From: an uncultured Ignavibacteriota bacterium
GTDB taxonomy: Bacteria; Bacteroidota; Ignavibacteria; UBA10030; UBA8401
Length of the DNA stretch: 64,000 bases
Reading direction: 5' to 3'
NCBI GenBank assembly: GCA_903861125.1
Contig: CAIOTF010000041.1
Coordinates: 1 to 64,000, forward strand
The notes below the pieces were generated by a model, which saw only the letters and a program-made list of their open reading frames with translations, did not search any database and was not told the origin of the DNA. Positions 1-10,200 of this stretch are shown here, in pieces. Position 1 is the stretch's first letter; the number at the start of each line of letters is the position of its first letter. The position numbers and the translations under genes were made by a program.

Positions 1-129
1 ACGGACTGTCGTGGAAAGCGTAAGATGTTGAATGGAAAGTCTCGACTTGCTCACGCAAAGGTCAGGGGGCTTCATCCGGACTGGTTGAAGAACTGCCTTA
101 AAATCGCTAAAATCAGCAACCGAAAATAG
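1..129 (+). CDS. C-terminal fragment of an unidentified ORF entering from the left edge (…MLNGKSRLAHAKVRGLHPDWLKNCLKIAKISNRK*)
   Basis: Frame +1 is open from base 1 to TAG at 127-129; too short to identify. Confidence 0.3.
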   Translation, partial: TDCRGKRKMLNGKSRLAHAKVRGLHPDWLKNCLKIAKISNRK

Positions 130-249
130 ACACGCTTACGCATTTACGTTATAGCAAGATCAACTATAATTGTGTATGCTCTTTTTACGATACACCAATG
201 ATTTATTTTGAATACATCTAACGGCGATTCATTGTATACACTCTATCTT

Positions 250-2820
250 ATGATGTCACAGTGTTTTCAATTTTCACTCTTTGGGAAGATACACATTTTA
301 TTTGTCCTCCTTTTTGTATGTGTTTCGATCTTGAATTCACAGGAAAAAGAAACATGGGGTTTAGAATTTTCGGAGGGGAAACCGAATGTTATTGAAACAA
401 CGCTGGATCTAACGTCTGAAAAGCCTATTACTTTTGATAAAGAACTTCGATTAGAATTTGATATTTCCATACTGCAAAACAATACGTACGGAAATATTGC
501 CGAGTTTCGCGATGACAAAAATGCATTCAGATCCAATTTGGTCTATTATCATCACACAAATACAGATACGTCGTATATACAACTGAATATCAACGGTCGT
601 TCGTCAAAATTGATTATCCCTTTTGTAAAGAAAAACCTACACCGAGGCACTTGGCATTCGATACAATTGTATTTCGAACGAAAGTCCCGCAAAATCACAA
701 TGCTCTGCGACAATAGTCACTTCTTCTCCGATACCGTTCGATTTATATATCCTCCCGCAATGAACATTATCTTTGGCGGATACGAAAAAGAGCGCGACAC
801 TCCCCCGATGATTATCCGTGACATACGGATTGAGATTGATGATTCGCCCGCTTCGCCGAGACACGATCACTGGTGGAAACTAAACGAGATTGAAGGAATC
901 AGTGCAATCGACTGTGTAACAGGTGGGAATAGTGCAACAACATTACCGGTATGGAATGGCAATAATTTTTTCCGATGGCGTCAGCGCGGCGTGGTAACGG
1001 TGCCAAACGATGCCGGAGGGTCTTTTTCGGGTACGAAATTCTCATTCCCCGCAAAAAAAGTAATGACGGAATATAATATTCTGACAAATGCGATCACGAA
1101 AGTGACGTATGGAAACGAACGCCCATCGCGAGCAATCTATTCGGTGCATATACAGAATACCGTTGGCGTGTACCATGGAGGGGGCGGACAGATATCGTTG
1201 CTGAACAGAGAAACGAATACCTGGTCATTCATCGATGACCGGTTCGATGATGACATGCATTTCTATGGAACAACAAAATTTGTAGATACCGTGAATAACA
1301 AAGCGTATGCATTTGGGGGGTATGGATGGCATACGGCCAAAAGCATGCTCCGTCAATTCAATTTCCGGGTTCATCAATGGGATACGATACCGCTGGAAAA
1401 TAAAAGCAAGTATTCCGAGCGTATGAATGTCTGTATTGCACCGGCGAATGAAAACGGAAAATATTACGTTTTAGGGGGGATTGGCAACGCAACCGGGAAA
1501 CAGCAGGATGGATTCAATCCCATCAATGATCTTTGGTCGCTGACGCTGAATCCGGGCAGACTGAAAAAAATCAGCGATATTATCCTTCCGCCGGAAGTGA
1601 AGGATATCTCCTGGCCGAGCGGTCCGATGTGGTTCGTCGTAAAAAACGACTCGGTGTTTTATTGTCTGGCGAAACTTGCAGAACGAAAGCACGATGAAAA
1701 AGAAACGCTGAGTGTATATCAAATATATACATCTTCATTGGATTCAATGATGTTGCGTGCTGCCGGCGAAAAGTTATATGTTAAAAATAATGAATGTTTA
1801 AGCGGAATATTTGACTCGCCGCTAACCAAAGAACTGATTGTTCTGCGTTCACAAAGCAGTTCCGCAACTGATTCCGTCCGCTATGAGATTCTTACGTTAT
1901 CTCTGCCACCGTACCGTGTAAGTGAGTACGAATATTCGGCTGCTGCACTCGAACGTACAACGTCCGCTTATTGGTACGGCGGTTTCGGATTATTGGTAGG
2001 CATTACGTTTACCCTCACGTTATTTTATAGAAAGAATCTGCAATTGCAGCCGGTACAACGTATGCCGGTAGTTTCCGGCCCTGACCGAATGACAGATCTT
2101 CCAGTACACGTTTCATCGGCAATAAATATTTTTGGGCGGTTTGAAGTGATCGACAAGAACGGAATCGATATTTCACAAACATTCTCCCCCTTAATGAAGC
2201 AATTGCTTGTCGTGTTGATCATCCACAGCAATCACAAAAAGAGGCCGCTGACCACGTCCGAACTGTCGAAGTTCTTCTGGATCGATTCTGAATTGGACCA
2301 TGCAAAAAATTCCCGTGGTGTTGCATTAAAGCGGCTGCGTAAATTATTGGAGCATGTTGATGATGTAGAAATAGTTCAAGTAAATCATCTTTGGCATATT
2401 CTTATACAGCAAGGAACCCGCTGCGATTATTTTGAATACATCCGATTGCGTGATTCCCGAAGCGGCAATTCTGAATGGCAGCATAAATTTGTGGAAGTAG
2501 CGGAGCGTGGTATGCTTGCTCATGAGCTTTCGTATGAATGGCTCGATCCGGTACGGGCCTCGCTATTGGATGACATAGAAATAATATGTCGTGAAATCAT
2601 TAGGAGCGATGCCGATGAACCGTTTAAATTGCAAACCGCCCGGGCGCTGTTGCTGTGGGATTCAATCAACGAAAATGCATTGATCACAGTGATCAATATT
2701 CTTGTTGCGCAAAAAAAGATCAATCTTGCAAAGGAAGTGTATAAACAATTCTGCTCCGAGTATAAAAAGATAATGGATAAAACGTACTCACGGGCATTTG
2801 AAGATCATGTCACCCGGTGA
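250..2820 (+). CDS. Membrane-anchored SARP-like transcriptional regulator: signal/TM, LamG-like plus Kelch-like extracytoplasmic region, TM helix, C-terminal winged helix + BTAD-like domain
   Basis: ORF 208-2820 (TTG at 208, ATG at 250). TM segment YWYGGFGLLVGITFTLTLFYRKN; then FGRFEVIDKNG…LTTSELSKFFW…NSRGVALKRLRKLL and a helical BTAD-like tail. Confidence 0.7.
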   Translation: MMSQCFQFSLFGKIHILFVLLFVCVSILNSQEKETWGLEFSEGKPNVIETTLDLTSEKPITFDKELRLEFDISILQNNTYGNIAEFRDDKNAFRSNLVYYHHTNTDTSYIQLNINGRSSKLIIPFVKKNLHRGTWHSIQLYFERKSRKITMLCDNSHFFSDTVRFIYPPAMNIIFGGYEKERDTPPMIIRDIRIEIDDSPASPRHDHWWKLNEIEGISAIDCVTGGNSATTLPVWNGNNFFRWRQRGVVTVPNDAGGSFSGTKFSFPAKKVMTEYNILTNAITKVTYGNERPSRAIYSVHIQNTVGVYHGGGGQISLLNRETNTWSFIDDRFDDDMHFYGTTKFVDTVNNKAYAFGGYGWHTAKSMLRQFNFRVHQWDTIPLENKSKYSERMNVCIAPANENGKYYVLGGIGNATGKQQDGFNPINDLWSLTLNPGRLKKISDIILPPEVKDISWPSGPMWFVVKNDSVFYCLAKLAERKHDEKETLSVYQIYTSSLDSMMLRAAGEKLYVKNNECLSGIFDSPLTKELIVLRSQSSSATDSVRYEILTLSLPPYRVSEYEYSAAALERTTSAYWYGGFGLLVGITFTLTLFYRKNLQLQPVQRMPVVSGPDRMTDLPVHVSSAINIFGRFEVIDKNGIDISQTFSPLMKQLLVVLIIHSNHKKRPLTTSELSKFFWIDSELDHAKNSRGVALKRLRKLLEHVDDVEIVQVNHLWHILIQQGTRCDYFEYIRLRDSRSGNSEWQHKFVEVAERGMLAHELSYEWLDPVRASLLDDIEIICREIIRSDADEPFKLQTARALLLWDSINENALITVINILVAQKKINLAKEVYKQFCSEYKKIMDKTYSRAFEDHVTR

Positions 2821-2944
2821 CCGAACGATAATATCCCAATCAGTTTCTCTTTTATTGATGTAACCATCACAATACTTCAAAGTTCCGCAATCAAGATATA
2901 ATTGTCCGCTGTAAAATATCGATAATTATTTCTTTTAACCCACG

Positions 2945-2980
2945 CTGTAATCTTTCCTGTAACCTGTGCGGTAACCTGCC
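2945..2980. repeat. Three tandem degenerate 12-bp units (ctgtaatctttc / ctgtaacctgtg / cggtaacctgcc)
   Basis: Read directly; unit starts at 2945, 2957, 2969. Confidence 0.5.
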
Positions 2981-3030
2981 GACGGTATCTTTATAGCTGC
3001 AAATTGCCGTAAAAAATATTTATCGTTTCG

Positions 3031-3120
3031 ATGCATTTTTACGAACTTGCGTAGTTGACACTTGATAAAATATTTATCATGAGTAGGCAAAATACATTTT
3101 TACGAACATACGTAGTTGAC
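3031..3120. promoter_or_regulatory. Two 29-bp direct repeats (3031-3059, 3092-3120) ending in GTAGTTGAC, candidate operator/-35 region
   Basis: atgcatttttacgaacttgcgtagttgac vs atacatttttacgaacatacgtagttgac (26/29 identical). The second is followed by TATTAA at 3139-3144, 17 bp after TTGACG. Confidence 0.6.
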
Positions 3121-3266
3121 GGTGGGGCTATTAACTTGTATTAATGTAGTACTGTTTATCTAAAACAGTTGGATCCTGAGTTTTACGTCGAATGATACAT
3201 TTGCCAACAATTTGTCATTCACTAGTAATTATGTTGGTAATAAAAATAATGCAGAGAGGTTGATAT

Positions 3267-4889
3267 ATGTACATAAAAAAAATAACACTTTTGCTGATCA
3301 TTGCGTCTCTGATGTCATTGATCATTGGTTGCAGCAGCTCAAAGCCGACAATTGAGGAAAAGCCAATTATTGAGAAACCAATTGCAGAGAAACCAATTAC
3401 TGATAAGCCATCGGTGAATAAATCATTGATGTTTACGGAACTTGGCTCAAAAATAGCGGCCTCTATAGTGCCAAATTTCAACGCATTAAAATTAAGGGAG
3501 AATTTGAATTCGCTCTATATCGCAAGGGTGGACGATCTGGTCCTTAGTGGAAAATACAGTCAATTTAACAGTGACGATGCATTCATCGAAAACGGGATTA
3601 TTGCTGGACTCCTCAATTCCGGGATCAAACTAACTGAAAAACTCAGCTCCATTAATCTTCGGGATGCTGCCGATGTGGATTATAACACAATGCCCAAGAG
3701 GGCATTCTATCAGCATACTCTTAATTTGAATGATCTTAGTCAGTTAAAGCAGGACAAAATAACATCGCATGTTCTTCTCTATAATGTGATCAAACGATCG
3801 GATAATGGATCGGGAGCATTGGTGTATTTCAGGGTGATCGATATCAATAGTTATAAGATCGTTCTCTCAGAACTGGTGAACGTGAATATGAACGACGGCA
3901 AATGGGAGGATGAACTTAAAAAGGATACTAAAGCGAGCGGGTATGCATCGTCGTATCAAAAAATAGTGGATGAACTCAAAAAGAAAAGGACATTGATCGA
4001 GACAATAAAATCGAATGTAACGCAATGCATTCTGGTGAACATCGATCTTTTGAACGTCAGTAATTTGTATAAGACGCCTATAGATCTGAAATCGATGGCG
4101 CGGGAAGATGCGATAACCACTTTTATGGTTGATGTCTCTAAGGACGGAAAAGCTTCGATCTACGAAAAGACAAAGAATATCGTCTTTAAGTATCCTTCGG
4201 TCTATAAAAATATTGTATTCAATACCAATCCGTTGATCTACGAAGACTGGCAGGAATATTTTGACAATATCGGATATCCCGATGTGATGTTCTACAGAAC
4301 AAATCTTGACAGTACGCTTTCGCTCTATCATGTAAATGCCAAGAATTCCGGTGAAGTATCGTTCTATGATTATACGGAAATTGAACGGAAAATCAATTCG
4401 ACCGAAAGTTCATTCAATCTGTTTTCGAAGATCGTCAGTCACAAAATGTTCAAAGATGAAAAACTATTGAAACTAATTAAAGGAAAAAGGATCATTTTGG
4501 TTGACGGCGACGGTATGACCACAAATTTTTCAAGTTTTGAGAAAACCAGGCAATTGTATGATTACCAGCAGTGTGCAATAGAGGAGGGGATGGCATCGGC
4601 AATCATAAGCAACTCAAACACGACAAAAGTGGTTGAAAAACTGAAAACGTTGTATTACAAGAGGGATGCGATGTATGCCAGCAGAGTATTTTACCCTAAT
4701 CCCCTGTATTTGGATAACTGGAAGCAATTGAAGGATGCGTACGGTGTTGATCTGGTACTGGTCTACAACAATACGATAAATTATTCTTCTCCAGGCGATG
4801 CCAAACAAAATCTCTCCAAAATCTCCGTCGCTTTTCGTCTGATCGATCTGACCGATGGGTCCATACTGTATGCAAATTTTCTGAACTAA
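3267..4889 (+). CDS. Lipoprotein with KPI-rich linker and repeated CsgG/FlgT-like segments, function unknown
   Basis: Lipobox SLIIGC; EKPIIEKPIAEKPITDKP repeat; recurring 'LYxARV…' and 'YNxI…FRxIDI/L' segments. Confidence 0.7.
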   Translation: MYIKKITLLLIIASLMSLIIGCSSSKPTIEEKPIIEKPIAEKPITDKPSVNKSLMFTELGSKIAASIVPNFNALKLRENLNSLYIARVDDLVLSGKYSQFNSDDAFIENGIIAGLLNSGIKLTEKLSSINLRDAADVDYNTMPKRAFYQHTLNLNDLSQLKQDKITSHVLLYNVIKRSDNGSGALVYFRVIDINSYKIVLSELVNVNMNDGKWEDELKKDTKASGYASSYQKIVDELKKKRTLIETIKSNVTQCILVNIDLLNVSNLYKTPIDLKSMAREDAITTFMVDVSKDGKASIYEKTKNIVFKYPSVYKNIVFNTNPLIYEDWQEYFDNIGYPDVMFYRTNLDSTLSLYHVNAKNSGEVSFYDYTEIERKINSTESSFNLFSKIVSHKMFKDEKLLKLIKGKRIILVDGDGMTTNFSSFEKTRQLYDYQQCAIEEGMASAIISNSNTTKVVEKLKTLYYKRDAMYASRVFYPNPLYLDNWKQLKDAYGVDLVLVYNNTINYSSPGDAKQNLSKISVAFRLIDLTDGSILYANFLN

Positions 4890-4908
4890 TAATACAAGGG
4901 AATATTCC

Positions 4909-6591
4909 ATGAAAAAAATATTTATATTCATCACCCTGCTGATTCTGCAATCGCAATCCTTGTTTTCGCAAGGATTTACCGTTGCCGATAAGCCCAATGT
5001 GTATGTTTACATCTTTACTCATTACTATAATCCTCAAAACGTATTTATCAAAGATACGGTAAAGTCACGTGACTCCGTGACAACATCACTTCAACTTACC
5101 ATGATAAATCCACAGGTTGCTTCCTCAATGGTATCATCGGCCCTTGCAAAATGGGATTTTCAAGTGATTGTTGAATCGATGCAAAAAAGAATATCGTCAA
5201 GAGGATATAATGGGGACAATGTATCAGAGCTGTTGAAAAGTAAAAGCGCAAAAGAGGCCGACTATATTATTGTCGGCGAATTCGGGCATACTCCATCATC
5301 ACTTGATCTTGACATTAAGGTATACGACGTAAAACTCCAGAATTTTATATACCGCAGCAATGTGAAACCGGAAAAAGAAATATCAAACTACCGCAAAAGT
5401 ATTGAGGAATCAATCGAAGGTTTTGTTGATATAGTAAAACCGGCTCACGCAGGATATGTATCCTTTCTGGCGGATAGTCTTTGCGCCGAGGATATTAATC
5501 CCAATATGGTGTTTTATAAACCGGCAGAATTACTTGTCGACAATAAACTTATGCCGACAAGCGATAAATTATTTTTAGAAACACCGGTCTATATGATTGA
5601 TTCTCTGGGTATGAGTATATTGTATAAAAAGAAGGATGCATCCGTCGCATTATTAAATGATTACAAAGAGATCCTGCAGGATTCGGTGAAGAGACCAAAA
5701 AAATATCTCATCTTCTCTGTGAAACCATTCTGGCAGGGTAAATATGACATTAGATTCTATACAATAAGCAATCGTGAAATTAATGCACAGGTAAGCGTAA
5801 AAGCGGGAAGAATAACCATTGCACATCTGCCCGGATGCACACATTCAATGGATACAGCAAAAGTGGAGCCGATTGTGAAATTCTCTTCGGGAAATATTAA
5901 AATAGAGAATATGATCAACGGTTATACCGCTTTTTTATCGGGCTTATCAAAATCACCGGCGAAAGAATCTAGAGGTTTTTCCGGTAGTCCGAACGGGATA
6001 TCGAAGCCGACCGTTAAAGATAAAAACTATGCGGGTAATATTGACACCATACAATTTTTTTACTGCTACAATGATAGTGGGAAAATTAAATATTCGGTCT
6101 CTCCGACCAATGACATTAAGGATATGCCGTTTTCAACAGACAGCACAAGAATTACTGTTCAGCAAAACAGCATCATGATCGAGAACATCAATCTTGGTCA
6201 ATATCTGTTTTCCGGATCGATGAAAGGTCAGGAATCCTTTCCAGGTAAACTAAATGTAACATATTATCAGTATACGAAAATTGTAAACCTGACCGAGAAT
6301 GCCAGAGCGGCTACAATTTCAATGATACAAAAATCGCGCGACAGCGCGGCGGCAAAGCAAATGGTGGTCTATTTAGATCCTTTCCCGGATGAAAATGCCG
6401 GCCAATATTCGCTCTTTATTAACGATGAAGCCTCACCGTTTATTGTCGCAAAGAATGTCGGGGAAGTGCATATTTTCTATAATCAGGAAATCAGTAAGAT
6501 CAGAGGGATCAATGCAAAGGGGGAGAAATCAACAAGTATGGATTTGACGACAGTTAAATCCAAACAATACGGGGAGCTAAAGTTTAAATAG
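4909..6591 (+). CDS. Secreted protein of unknown function with TolB-N/CsgG-like N-terminal segment
   Basis: Signal peptide MKKIFIFITLLILQSQSLFSQ; 'ADYIIVGEFGHTPSSLDLDIKVYDVK'. Starts 19 bp after the upstream stop. Confidence 0.7.
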   Translation: MKKIFIFITLLILQSQSLFSQGFTVADKPNVYVYIFTHYYNPQNVFIKDTVKSRDSVTTSLQLTMINPQVASSMVSSALAKWDFQVIVESMQKRISSRGYNGDNVSELLKSKSAKEADYIIVGEFGHTPSSLDLDIKVYDVKLQNFIYRSNVKPEKEISNYRKSIEESIEGFVDIVKPAHAGYVSFLADSLCAEDINPNMVFYKPAELLVDNKLMPTSDKLFLETPVYMIDSLGMSILYKKKDASVALLNDYKEILQDSVKRPKKYLIFSVKPFWQGKYDIRFYTISNREINAQVSVKAGRITIAHLPGCTHSMDTAKVEPIVKFSSGNIKIENMINGYTAFLSGLSKSPAKESRGFSGSPNGISKPTVKDKNYAGNIDTIQFFYCYNDSGKIKYSVSPTNDIKDMPFSTDSTRITVQQNSIMIENINLGQYLFSGSMKGQESFPGKLNVTYYQYTKIVNLTENARAATISMIQKSRDSAAAKQMVVYLDPFPDENAGQYSLFINDEASPFIVAKNVGEVHIFYNQEISKIRGINAKGEKSTSMDLTTVKSKQYGELKFK

Positions 6592-6635
6592 CTGCCGTTA
6601 AAAAGATCCTCTCATTGCAATAGCAACATATATTT

Positions 6636-6694
6636 TCTGACCGGTCATTCCCGCACGGATACATATACGGGGATGGCCGGTCAGATTGTTTTTT
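6636..6694 (+). terminator. Probable intrinsic terminator after the secreted-protein gene
   Basis: CTGACCGG (6636-6643) pairs with CCGGTCAG (6676-6683) with additional inner pairing, followed by ATTGTTTTTTCT. Confidence 0.65.
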
Positions 6695-7261
6695 CTAATG
6701 ACGCTGCAAGATGTGAGTAATCAAAAATTAACCCATGCATTAATACAATACACTTTCTGAAAGAATGCGGTATGTTATCGATTTTGTTTTCGCAAACTGT
6801 CGCTGAACATCAATTCCAATGAAAAAGTCATAGATACCAAGGTTTTGCTCAGTTTTAGAATTTACATACCGTGAATTTTTAATCAATTTGCTATTCCATT
6901 GAAATAAAAATGATCCCTGCTGATACTGGCCGGGATTATCTGTTTTAAAGGGTGGTTTAGCTGCTTATAACAGCGTCACTGAGGTTACTTTTAGCCGGTA
7001 AAGTATACGGTTTAATTATAGGATCACTGAATCATTTTACTTTGATGTTTTTGGCGTATAACATCAAGAAAGCCAATAAGTTATGGCGGAATTACAGTTG
7101 CGCAGAAAGAGAATCTTTGATACATTAAACCGTTCATATCAGAGATACTCACAGGATCCTTTCCCGGAATACTTTTTACCCGTTGCTGCATCAAGAATCA
7201 TTTCAACGTTCGCATGTATGCCGTATTTCCTGCAATGCCATTCTAAATAGCGTACAGTACA

Positions 7262-10200
7262 ATGATCTCCATAAAAAAAATATTTTCCGGTCTTCGTTTT
7301 TCCCTGAACCAGATGTGGATCATTTTTGCCGGAACGCTCATCGCACTTCTCTTCGCTTTGTATGTCTACGAATCCGAAACTGCCGATGCATCTGCCGTGG
7401 CCCGTTCACAGGCCGTTGCCTTTATCGAAAAAAATCTGCTGCTCAATCATTGGGATATCGCCGATTTCGATCTTTTTATAAAAACGGAAGAATTACCGCC
7501 ACAGAATCTGTACAGCGCACACGATACGGCATACCGGCAATTCAAGGGGGTGACCAAGGTAAATCCGGCCAGCATTCTGCGGTTGTTCGAGAAACAGAAC
7601 TCAGCATCCTCCGGTATTCAGGGGAAACTTGTTCGTATACATTCTCCAATAACAGAACATCAACCCGATGCCTGGGAATCGGGAAATTTATCACACTCCG
7701 AATATGCAGGGGAAGACGTCACGCATTTGCAGCAAACCGGTGCGGAGATCTCTATGCGTCTTTTCCGTCCGCTCCGGATCGATCAGCGCTGCTTCGGATG
7801 TCATACAGATTGGTCCGGCAAAGAGAACGAAATATTTTGCGGTATCAGCGTGACAGTGCCGATGAATCAGTTTATTACCATGAGGAACAGACACGTGATG
7901 AACGCCGGTATGATCCTTGCCGGTATTTGGAGCATTGGAATAATCGGGTTCGTTATCTTTACGCAGCGTTACAACAGACGGACGAAGGAAAACGAGATTA
8001 AATTCAAGGAGATGTTCGATGAAGCTCCGGTCGGCTATCATGAAATTGATTCAAAAGGTCGCATCACGCGAGTGAATCGGACCGAACTGGCCATACTTGG
8101 ATATACCGAGGCTGAGATGATCGGGCAGTATGTCTGGAAGTTCGTGTCCGACGAAACAAGTTCGCAACATTCCGTGATTGAAAAACTTTCCGGTGTGCAA
8201 GCGCCGGCAAAAGGATCCGAGCGAACGTATATGCGAAAAGACCGGAGTGCAATGCCTGTATTGCTTGAGGACCGGATCCTGCAGGATACCAGAGGAACGA
8301 TCACCGGAATCCGCACAACAATTCAGGATATTACCTCGTTGAAGGAGCTGCAGCGGGCGATCCAGGGGGCGGCAACATCGCTTGAGGCGGTTATCGAGAC
8401 CATTGGTGAAGGCATCTCGCTGAGCGATGCGCACGGACATTTTGAGATCTTTAATTCCACTCTTGAAACCATACTGGGTTATACCAAGGCAGAGGCGAAC
8501 AGTGTTGCAGATTTTTCATCGCTGATCTACCCGCTGGAAGAGCAGCGTCAAGCAGCGCTGGACGGATTAAAGACGCTGCTGGATGAACGGAAGACGCACG
8601 ATGTTGAAACAACGATCCGCAGCAAAGACGGAACAGTGAAAACACTGCTGGTATCGAGTGCAATCATCGACTTCAAAAATGAACAGATGTTCTTGACTGC
8701 ATGGAGGGATATTTCCCTGCGAAAAAAATCCGAACAGCTGCTGTCGGAGCAGCAACGGACCCTTCAGGCGATCACACAGTCGGCCGGGGATGCCATCTTG
8801 ATGATGGACAATGCCGGCACCATCTCGTTCTGGAATGCAGCGGCGGAACGTATCTTCGGCTGGACCGAAAAAGAGGCGATCGGAATGAATCTGCACTCGC
8901 TCATTGTTCCCGAACGCTTCCGCGAAAATCACAACAAGGCATTTCCAAAATTCCAGATCACCGGTGAAGGTGCCGCCATCGGCACGCAGCTTGATGTGCA
9001 GGCTATCAGAAAGGACGGAACGGAATTTGATGTTTCCCTTTCCCTTTCTGCGGTCCGTCTCAACGAGCAATGGCATGCCGTCGGCATGCTTCGCGATATT
9101 ACGGAGCAGAAGCGGATAGAACTGGTGCGTCAGGTTCAATACGATATTGCACACGCTGCAACGACCACGGAAAACAGCGAGGATTTCTTCGCATCGGTCC
9201 GTTCCAATCTCAGCAAACTCATCAACACTAAAAATTTCTATATTGCACTGTATGACGATCTCTCCGGCATGGTGTCATTTCCGTATTTCGTTGACGAGGA
9301 AGATCCTACTCCGCAGCCGCGGAATCTGGGGAAGGGTTTAACCGATTACGTTATACGGAGCGGCGAACCGTTGTTCGGCACCATAGAGAAGTGCAACGAA
9401 CTTGAAGCAGCCGGACACATCATTATCATCGGTTCGCCCAGTGCGTTGTGGCTCGGCGCGCCGCTTAAGATCGGCGAACATATTTTTGGTGCGATTGTTG
9501 TTCAAAGCTACGGCGATCCGGACTGCTATTCACGCGCAGATCTGCAGCTGCTCGATTTTGTCTCGAATCAAATATCACATTCGATCAACAGAAAACAGAC
9601 GGAAGAACAGATACGGAAACAATTTTCAATTATTGAAGAGAAGAATATCGAACTGGCGGAAGCACGCGATCAGGCGATGGAAGCAAGCAAGGCGAAAAGT
9701 TCATTCCTGGCGAATATGTCGCATGAACTCCGGACACCGCTGAATGCGATCATCGGATACAGCGAACTTCTTCTGGAAGAAATGGGGGATGCCGGTGAGA
9801 AGGGTTATACGCAGGATATCGAAAAGATCCGGATGGCGGGGAACAATCTTCTTTCACTGATCAATGATATTCTCGATCTGTCAAAGATCGAAGCGGGACG
9901 GATGGAACTGTTCATTGAGGAGTTCGATCTTCTTCATCTGCTGAAAGAGATCGATGCAACGATACAGCCGCTGGTGGATAAAAAATTGAACACATTAACT
10001 GTTCACGCACCCGAAAAATCGGTGATGCTCCGGCTTGATCATACTAAAGTACGTCAGATTATCTTTAATTTGCTTAGCAATTCATGCAAGTTCACCGAAA
10101 AAGGGGAGATCACCTTATCGGTTGCCGTGGAGACGGGGCAGAGCACGGGCACCGGGGATGTGATACGATTTTCCGTTAAGGATTCCGGCATCGGTATGAC

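Follow-up and report, generated by a model that had tools for sequence, protein, structure and literature searches.

Short phased repeats as the predicted operator of a membrane-anchored SARP-type regulator in an Ignavibacteria genome

Introduction

What controls a pair of orphan lipoprotein-type genes that follows directly behind a large membrane regulator gene in an uncultured Ignavibacteriota bacterium? In the window, the whole stretch of 64,000 nucleotides analyzed here, regulator and pair are separated by an intergenic region (2821–3266) with two conspicuous 29-bp direct repeats, which a sequence-only reading had proposed as the operator of the regulator. SARP regulators have been known chiefly for activating antibiotic clusters in actinomycetes; they contact sigma region 4 and RNA polymerase, and their canonical operator consists of repeats 11 or 22 bp apart. 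The direct-repeat operator of such activators stands where the −35 element would be (PMC10936776, PMC10972967), the last repeat lies 8 bp from the −10 element (PMC10936776), and for PimR, 10-bp repeat units have been described (PMC10972967). The comparisons reported below make it probable that the intergenic region is an activator-dependent promoter under the adjacent membrane regulator, acting through four short repeats (2935–2977) and not through the 29-mers.

Results

Fold and layout of the membrane regulator

The upstream gene encodes a protein with an N-terminal signal/anchor region, a beta-rich ectodomain with a Kelch propeller, a membrane helix at approximately residues 571 to 610, and a cytoplasmic C-terminal SARP-type domain (Table 1); its true start is possibly the ATG at 250 or 253. 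Kelch repeats were the sole Pfam detection, and the SARP-type domain was missed by the sequence libraries searched with the regulator. An AlphaFold2 model of the C-terminal 241 residues alone reached a pLDDT of 93.5, and comparison of structures with Foldseek against the PDB (E ≤ 0.001) returned only AfsR in promoter complexes (8hvr, 8k60) and EmbR (2fez, 2ff4). The modeled domain, an OmpR-type winged helix followed by a BTA domain and including a conserved helix (AxNNRxV...LR), is of SARP type by fold, and the earlier guess that the neighboring membrane protein carries such a domain in the cytoplasm holds on this basis.

The contig starts within an open frame (to 129) without a Pfam match, leaving the regulator's own promoter region (window 1–207) short and possibly incomplete. 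A second Kelch-SARP paralog (G000:C2:3107–5659 and G004:C153) is 24% identical and has no TAAYC array nearby; its response-regulator neighbors are conserved between G000, the genome of the window, and G004.

Table 1. Coordinates of observed and predicted features in the window
Feature	Position	Strand	Basis
Membrane one-component regulator, 870 aa	208..2820	+	ORF, Kelch hits, full-length model, 30-member alignment
SARP-type domain: winged helix (OmpR-type) and helical BTA-like domain	2095..2817	+	AlphaFold2, Foldseek, conserved helix
Predicted operator repeat 1, TTAACCCACGCT	2935..2946 (heptamer 2935–2941)	+	12-bp array
Predicted operator repeat 2, GTAATCTTTCCT	2947..2958	+	12-bp array
Predicted operator repeat 3, GTAACCTGTGCG	2959..2970	+	12-bp array
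Predicted operator repeat 4, heptamer GTAACCT (2971–2977) and 8-bp gap to box	2971..2985	+	15-bp start-to-box as in homologous arrays
Predicted −10/−7 box TATCTTTA, TAnnTTTG type	2986..2993	+	Position after array; house promoters have TAnnTT
12-mer AAAATATTTATC, copy 1	3013..3024	+	Ahead of 29-mer copy 1; missed by sequence-only reading
29-bp direct repeat, copy 1	3031..3059	+	Repeat comparison and shuffles
12-mer AAAATATTTATC, copy 2	3067..3078	+	Ahead of 29-mer copy 2; within imperfect dyad 3058–3084
29-bp direct repeat, copy 2	3092..3120	+	Repeat comparison and shuffles
Earlier candidate promoter TTGACG-17-TATTAA	3116..3144	+	Poor fit to the local promoter matrix
First gene of the presumed target pair, an orphan lipoprotein of 540 aa	3267..4889	+	ORF, lipobox-like LIIGC
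Second gene of the presumed target pair, an orphan secreted protein of 560 aa	4909..6591	+	ORF; 19 bp behind gene 1

A phased TAAYC array in the intergenic region

Positions 2935 to 2993 read TTAACCCACGCT GTAATCTTTCCT GTAACCTGTGCG GTAACCTGCCGACGG TATCTTTA, that is, four (T/G)TAAYC units with a 12-bp period followed by a box. Not even three such units were reached in any of 20,000 shuffles, and exact TAAYC three times at 12 bp occurs nowhere else in the 4.19-Mb genome. By sequence these are heptameric direct repeats of the kind expected of a SARP operator, and the last of them lies 8 bp from the predicted −10 element (15 = 7 + 8) in the window as in homologous loci; instead of the 11- or 22-bp separation of SARP repeats, the period is 12 bp in the window and in the majority of relatives. 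At 14.3 bits, the window array has the lowest composite score of all (23–34 for the others) because three of its four units start with G (GTAACC/GTAATC, not TTAACC), and one unrelated site within 563 kb of this genome scored higher (21.1); what carries the argument is the array together with its position. Most likely, judging from comparison with related bacteria, the membrane sensor binds the four short repeats just upstream of the 29-mers. The receptor-operator-effector module suggested earlier is thus retained in part: a SARP-type membrane neighbor adjoins a direct-repeat array correctly spaced from a −10/−7 box in the same intergenic region, but the 29-mers find no support as its operator.

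Arrays beside relatives of the regulator

Relatives of the regulator across Bacteroidota and Ignavibacteria adjoin (T/C)TAAYC arrays with a 12-bp period, or an 11-bp period in a few (L020, L022, L029, L037); several relatives have no such array. Many of them adjoin SusC/SusD pairs, and the regulator-SusC gaps contain runs of TTAAYC at 12 bp. A single scan yielded 32 loci containing such relatives. TAAY runs of at least three units at an 11/12-bp period numbered 17 in 69 kb flanking regulators as compared to 13 in 412 kb elsewhere, while unrelated periods gave zero to two runs in the flanks and the overlapping 10/11 and 12/13 bins gave 7 and 10.

Alignment of the arrays places the start of the last unit 15 bp ahead of a TAnnTTTG box, which leaves 8 bp between heptamer and box. 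Matches to TAnnTTTG at +15 averaged 5.22 of 6, with no other offset from 6 to 44 exceeding 3.0, and the average was 4.75 in four loci outside the set on which the rule was made. That set comprised five loci. Of the four others, L018 and the window were assessed afterwards by eye, and the arrays of L042 and L044 are untrained matches to a matrix that contained the box, so these four are only partly independent. The closest ortholog of the regulator is on a contig that ends 3 bp past the stop codon, before the intergenic region.

Further arrangements were observed. In a Chlorobiota genome (L044:7833–12339), two Kelch-type regulator genes stand in tandem, and the second is followed closely by a TTAACC array. 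At L134:1480–2592, an array is flanked by a membrane regulator and by another SARP-domain gene of 277 aa, apparently a separate one, an arrangement that suggests a regulator cascade. At L027:7633 (−), a second array faces a divergent gene, likely a glycosidase, across the regulator, so that a single regulator may serve the genes on its two sides. At L018:10619, L135:1631 and L136:1558 (+), the small ORF that comes first behind the array encodes a similar zinc-ribbon-like peptide of 38 to 50 aa (CPHCGKxISxxAxRCKWCK), which may be a conserved microprotein under the control of Kelch-SARP regulators; none is evident in the window.

Converse search from DNA to regulator

When 396 genomes of the phylum were queried blindly with YTAACC three times at 12 bp alone, seven matches were obtained. 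Three of them lay close to the stop codon of a regulator relative, between 4 bp ahead of it and 34 bp behind it (HMM E 1e-50 to 1e-76), and the sequences at +15 were TAGATTTA, TTTATTTA, and TACATTGT, clear boxes in two cases and a partial one in the third. The remaining four comprised two simple repeats, one match in coding sequence and one isolated match (L139) with at best a partial box. The search thus ties array to regulator, linkage having played no part in the query.

On this evidence, it is somewhat more probable than otherwise that membrane-anchored SARP receptors control SusC/D, peptidase, and lipoprotein operons throughout the phylum via a (T/C)TAAYC code (11–12 bp, ending 8 bp before TAnnTTTG), to which the present locus would add a layer of 29-bp repeats. 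The short phased repeats probably mark a widespread family of membrane-anchored gene switches that is apparently new to description; no description of Kelch-SARP regulators in Bacteroidota was found in the open-access literature searched, absence from which is not proof of novelty. If the operator code is true, targets become predictable from DNA alone.

The 29-bp direct repeats and the earlier promoter proposal

The 29-mers are as originally described, with 26 of 29 positions identical, 61 bp from start to start and both copies ending in GTAGTTGAC. They are strongly nonrandom: 300 dinucleotide shuffles of this intergenic region gave no direct match of this length better than 21/29, and zero matches to the repeat core motif are expected in the window. 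A 12-mer, AAAATATTTATC, is repeated ahead of them (shuffle frequency ∼0.4%), and each 29-mer contains a TACG-N6-CGTA dyad. Inverted repeats of the intergenic region did not rise above shuffles (p ∼ 0.14). The sequence TTTTTACGATAC at window 182–193 resembles the beginning of the 29-mer core.

As the operator of the adjacent regulator, with TTGACG-17-TATTAA as the regulated promoter, the 29-mers are very unlikely. The proposal has the right strand and the right intergenic region, the second copy does reach a TTGAC, and a weak −10 element is acceptable in an activator-dependent promoter. Against it, the two copies are the sole occurrences of the motif in the 4.19-Mb genome, no credible match was found among 59 relatives, the spacing is 61 bp instead of 11 or 22 bp, and the distance from the repeat to the proposed −10 element is 18 bp instead of 8. 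Inside the 29-mers, there are no heptamer repeats spaced by 10, 11, or 22 bp, and none of 45 intergenic regions next to regulator relatives contains comparable long direct repeats; a conserved alternative operator exists in the TTAACC-type arrays of the relatives.

Three weak matches were set aside: a lone one among the 59 relatives (G059/L016) has three mismatches and lies inside an aldo-keto reductase gene; one to the 12-mer region (G007:C26) extends over 24 bp, at chance level, in apparently coding sequence; and a core match with one mismatch upstream of an M6-type peptidase gene (G000:C30:5929) is background, given six weak hits of a reversed control pattern.

The proposed promoter itself is present in its letters (TTGACG at 3116–3121, 17 bp, TATTAA at 3139–3144), but it is not promoter-like for this genome. 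In 464 kb of G000 (L093–L112 and the window), TTGA and TAnnTT are paired at exactly 17 bp in 16 cases in upstream regions and in at most three at other spacings from 14 to 22. The local promoter matrix gave −1.1 for the proposed promoter and −2.4 for the first copy, as compared to median best scores of 3.3 in shuffled upstream sequences and 6.2 in real ones; a generic sigma-70 scan found nothing. Seeded with the TTGA/TAnnTT pattern, the matrix would understate activator-dependent promoters, and its low score speaks against a constitutive promoter at TTGACG-17-TATTAA, not against a regulated one. The house promoters of this Ignavibacteria genome, TTGA-17-TAnnTT(TG), combine a classical −35 element with a Bacteroidota-type −7 box. 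Both 29-mers end in TTGAC, the preferred −35 start of the genome, which would suit tandem −35 elements of a second promoter, possibly for another sigma factor; with no TAnnTT box 17 bp from either copy at the scores given above, this reading is improbable.

Predicted promoter and target genes

In the favored arrangement, the cytoplasmic SARP-type domains would bind the four repeats as side-by-side protomers, and the bound regulator would cover and replace the missing −35 element, recruiting RNA polymerase. Transcription would start near 3000 toward the lipoprotein pair (3267–6591), and the Kelch ectodomain may sense an envelope or extracellular signal that gates activation. The pair is taken as the presumed target because it is next on the same strand. 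Its first gene has no Pfam or NCBIfam family, and no relatives were found for either; orthologs of the pair, upstream of which conservation of the repeats could be judged, were not found.

At ∼270 nt, the predicted leader exceeds that of most homologous loci; the distance from box to ATG is 19–92 in most of them and 233 and 277 in two. An Rfam search of 1–8000 returned nothing, and leader RNA folding was no better than in shuffles (z between −0.5 and 0.8). A perfect 7-bp stem (ACTGTTT-ATCTA-AAACAGT, 3151–3169) lies in the leader, in a region whose fold is likewise not better than shuffles. A leader peptide from the seven-codon frame in copy 1 (ATG CAT TTT TAC GAA CTT GCG TAG) is unlikely; copy 2 has an ATA start and two replacement changes.

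Possible roles of the 29-mers

With transcription predicted to start near 3000, the 29-mers would sit ∼30 to 120 nt into the predicted leader, where they most likely either form a second, local level of control through another protein on DNA or RNA or are a relic of tandem duplication. It is possible, at rather less than even chance, that they serve in the leader as tandem sites for another dedicated regulator that binds DNA or RNA, e.g., a repressor, or a roadblock downstream of the array promoter. Both the 12-mer (12/12) and the 29-mer (26/29) are preserved, whereas the stretch separating them is not the same sequence in the two copies and measures 6 nt in one and 13 nt in the other; this unequal divergence hints at selection. 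Two of the three differences between copies fall on nonpalindromic positions of the dyad. Against such a regulator stand the lack of a regulon, weak 29-mer matches being no commoner than those of the reversed control pattern (one extra versus six), the lack of a candidate regulator, and the unremarkable folding of the leader RNA.

A tandem duplication without present function is a tentative alternative, to be given about one chance in three. The repeats are unique in the genome and absent from relatives, plasmids, and viral contigs, and the genome has other pairs of like quality (at least 25/29 within 200 bp in ∼4 places in 464 kb), yet 38 of 41 aligned bases are identical across a replaced flanking spacer, an uneven divergence that speaks against such a relic. 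Local second control is accordingly ranked slightly above relic duplication, with the second promoter behind both. The exact geometry of a 29-nt repeat and a 32-nt spacer (61 bp) also recalls the remnant of a type I-E-like CRISPR array reduced to two repeats, an origin to which we give almost no credence: the complete-scoring genome has no Cas1, 3 of 29 repeat positions differ, the 12-mer recurs inside the supposed spacer, and there are no further copies.

Comparison with known systems

Like the Streptomyces SARPs (AfsR on the afsS promoter; DnrI, ActII-ORF4), the system described here combines a winged-helix and BTA fold with direct repeats, the last 8 bp from the −10 box. In contrast to them, the regulator has a membrane anchor with a Kelch ectodomain, the period is 12 bp (11 bp in some relatives) with TTAAYC units, and the neighbors are envelope or secreted proteins and SusC/D operons rather than antibiotic clusters, in Bacteroidota/Ignavibacteria hosts. 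EmbR of Mycobacterium tuberculosis has the same SARP-type fold (Foldseek 2fez, 2ff4) but is soluble, with an FHA domain where the window regulator has its membrane sensor. ToxR/CadC-type membrane one-component regulators consist of a periplasmic sensor, one membrane helix, and a cytoplasmic OmpR-type winged helix, a general plan shared by the window regulator; in the latter, the winged helix is C-terminal and joined to a BTA-like domain, the ectodomain is of Kelch type, and the likeness is one of layout. PUL regulators of Bacteroidota include hybrid two-component systems, SusR, and anti-sigma/ECF pairs. As with these, the gene adjoins a SusC/D or other envelope operon that it presumably controls, whereas its DNA-binding domain and operator are different and neither a kinase nor a sigma factor is involved.

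A membrane-anchored SARP relative in Bacteroidota/Ignavibacteria thereby gains a predicted operator, promoter geometry, and predicted targets including SusC/D nutrient-uptake operons, and unannotated Kelch proteins become testable sensors. The first view of this locus is corrected in that the conserved element is the short phased repeats, not the conspicuous long ones. Because the canonical 11-bp spacing is absent, the window system is not a classical SARP system; it is of the SARP kind, with a 12-bp period and a membrane sensor.
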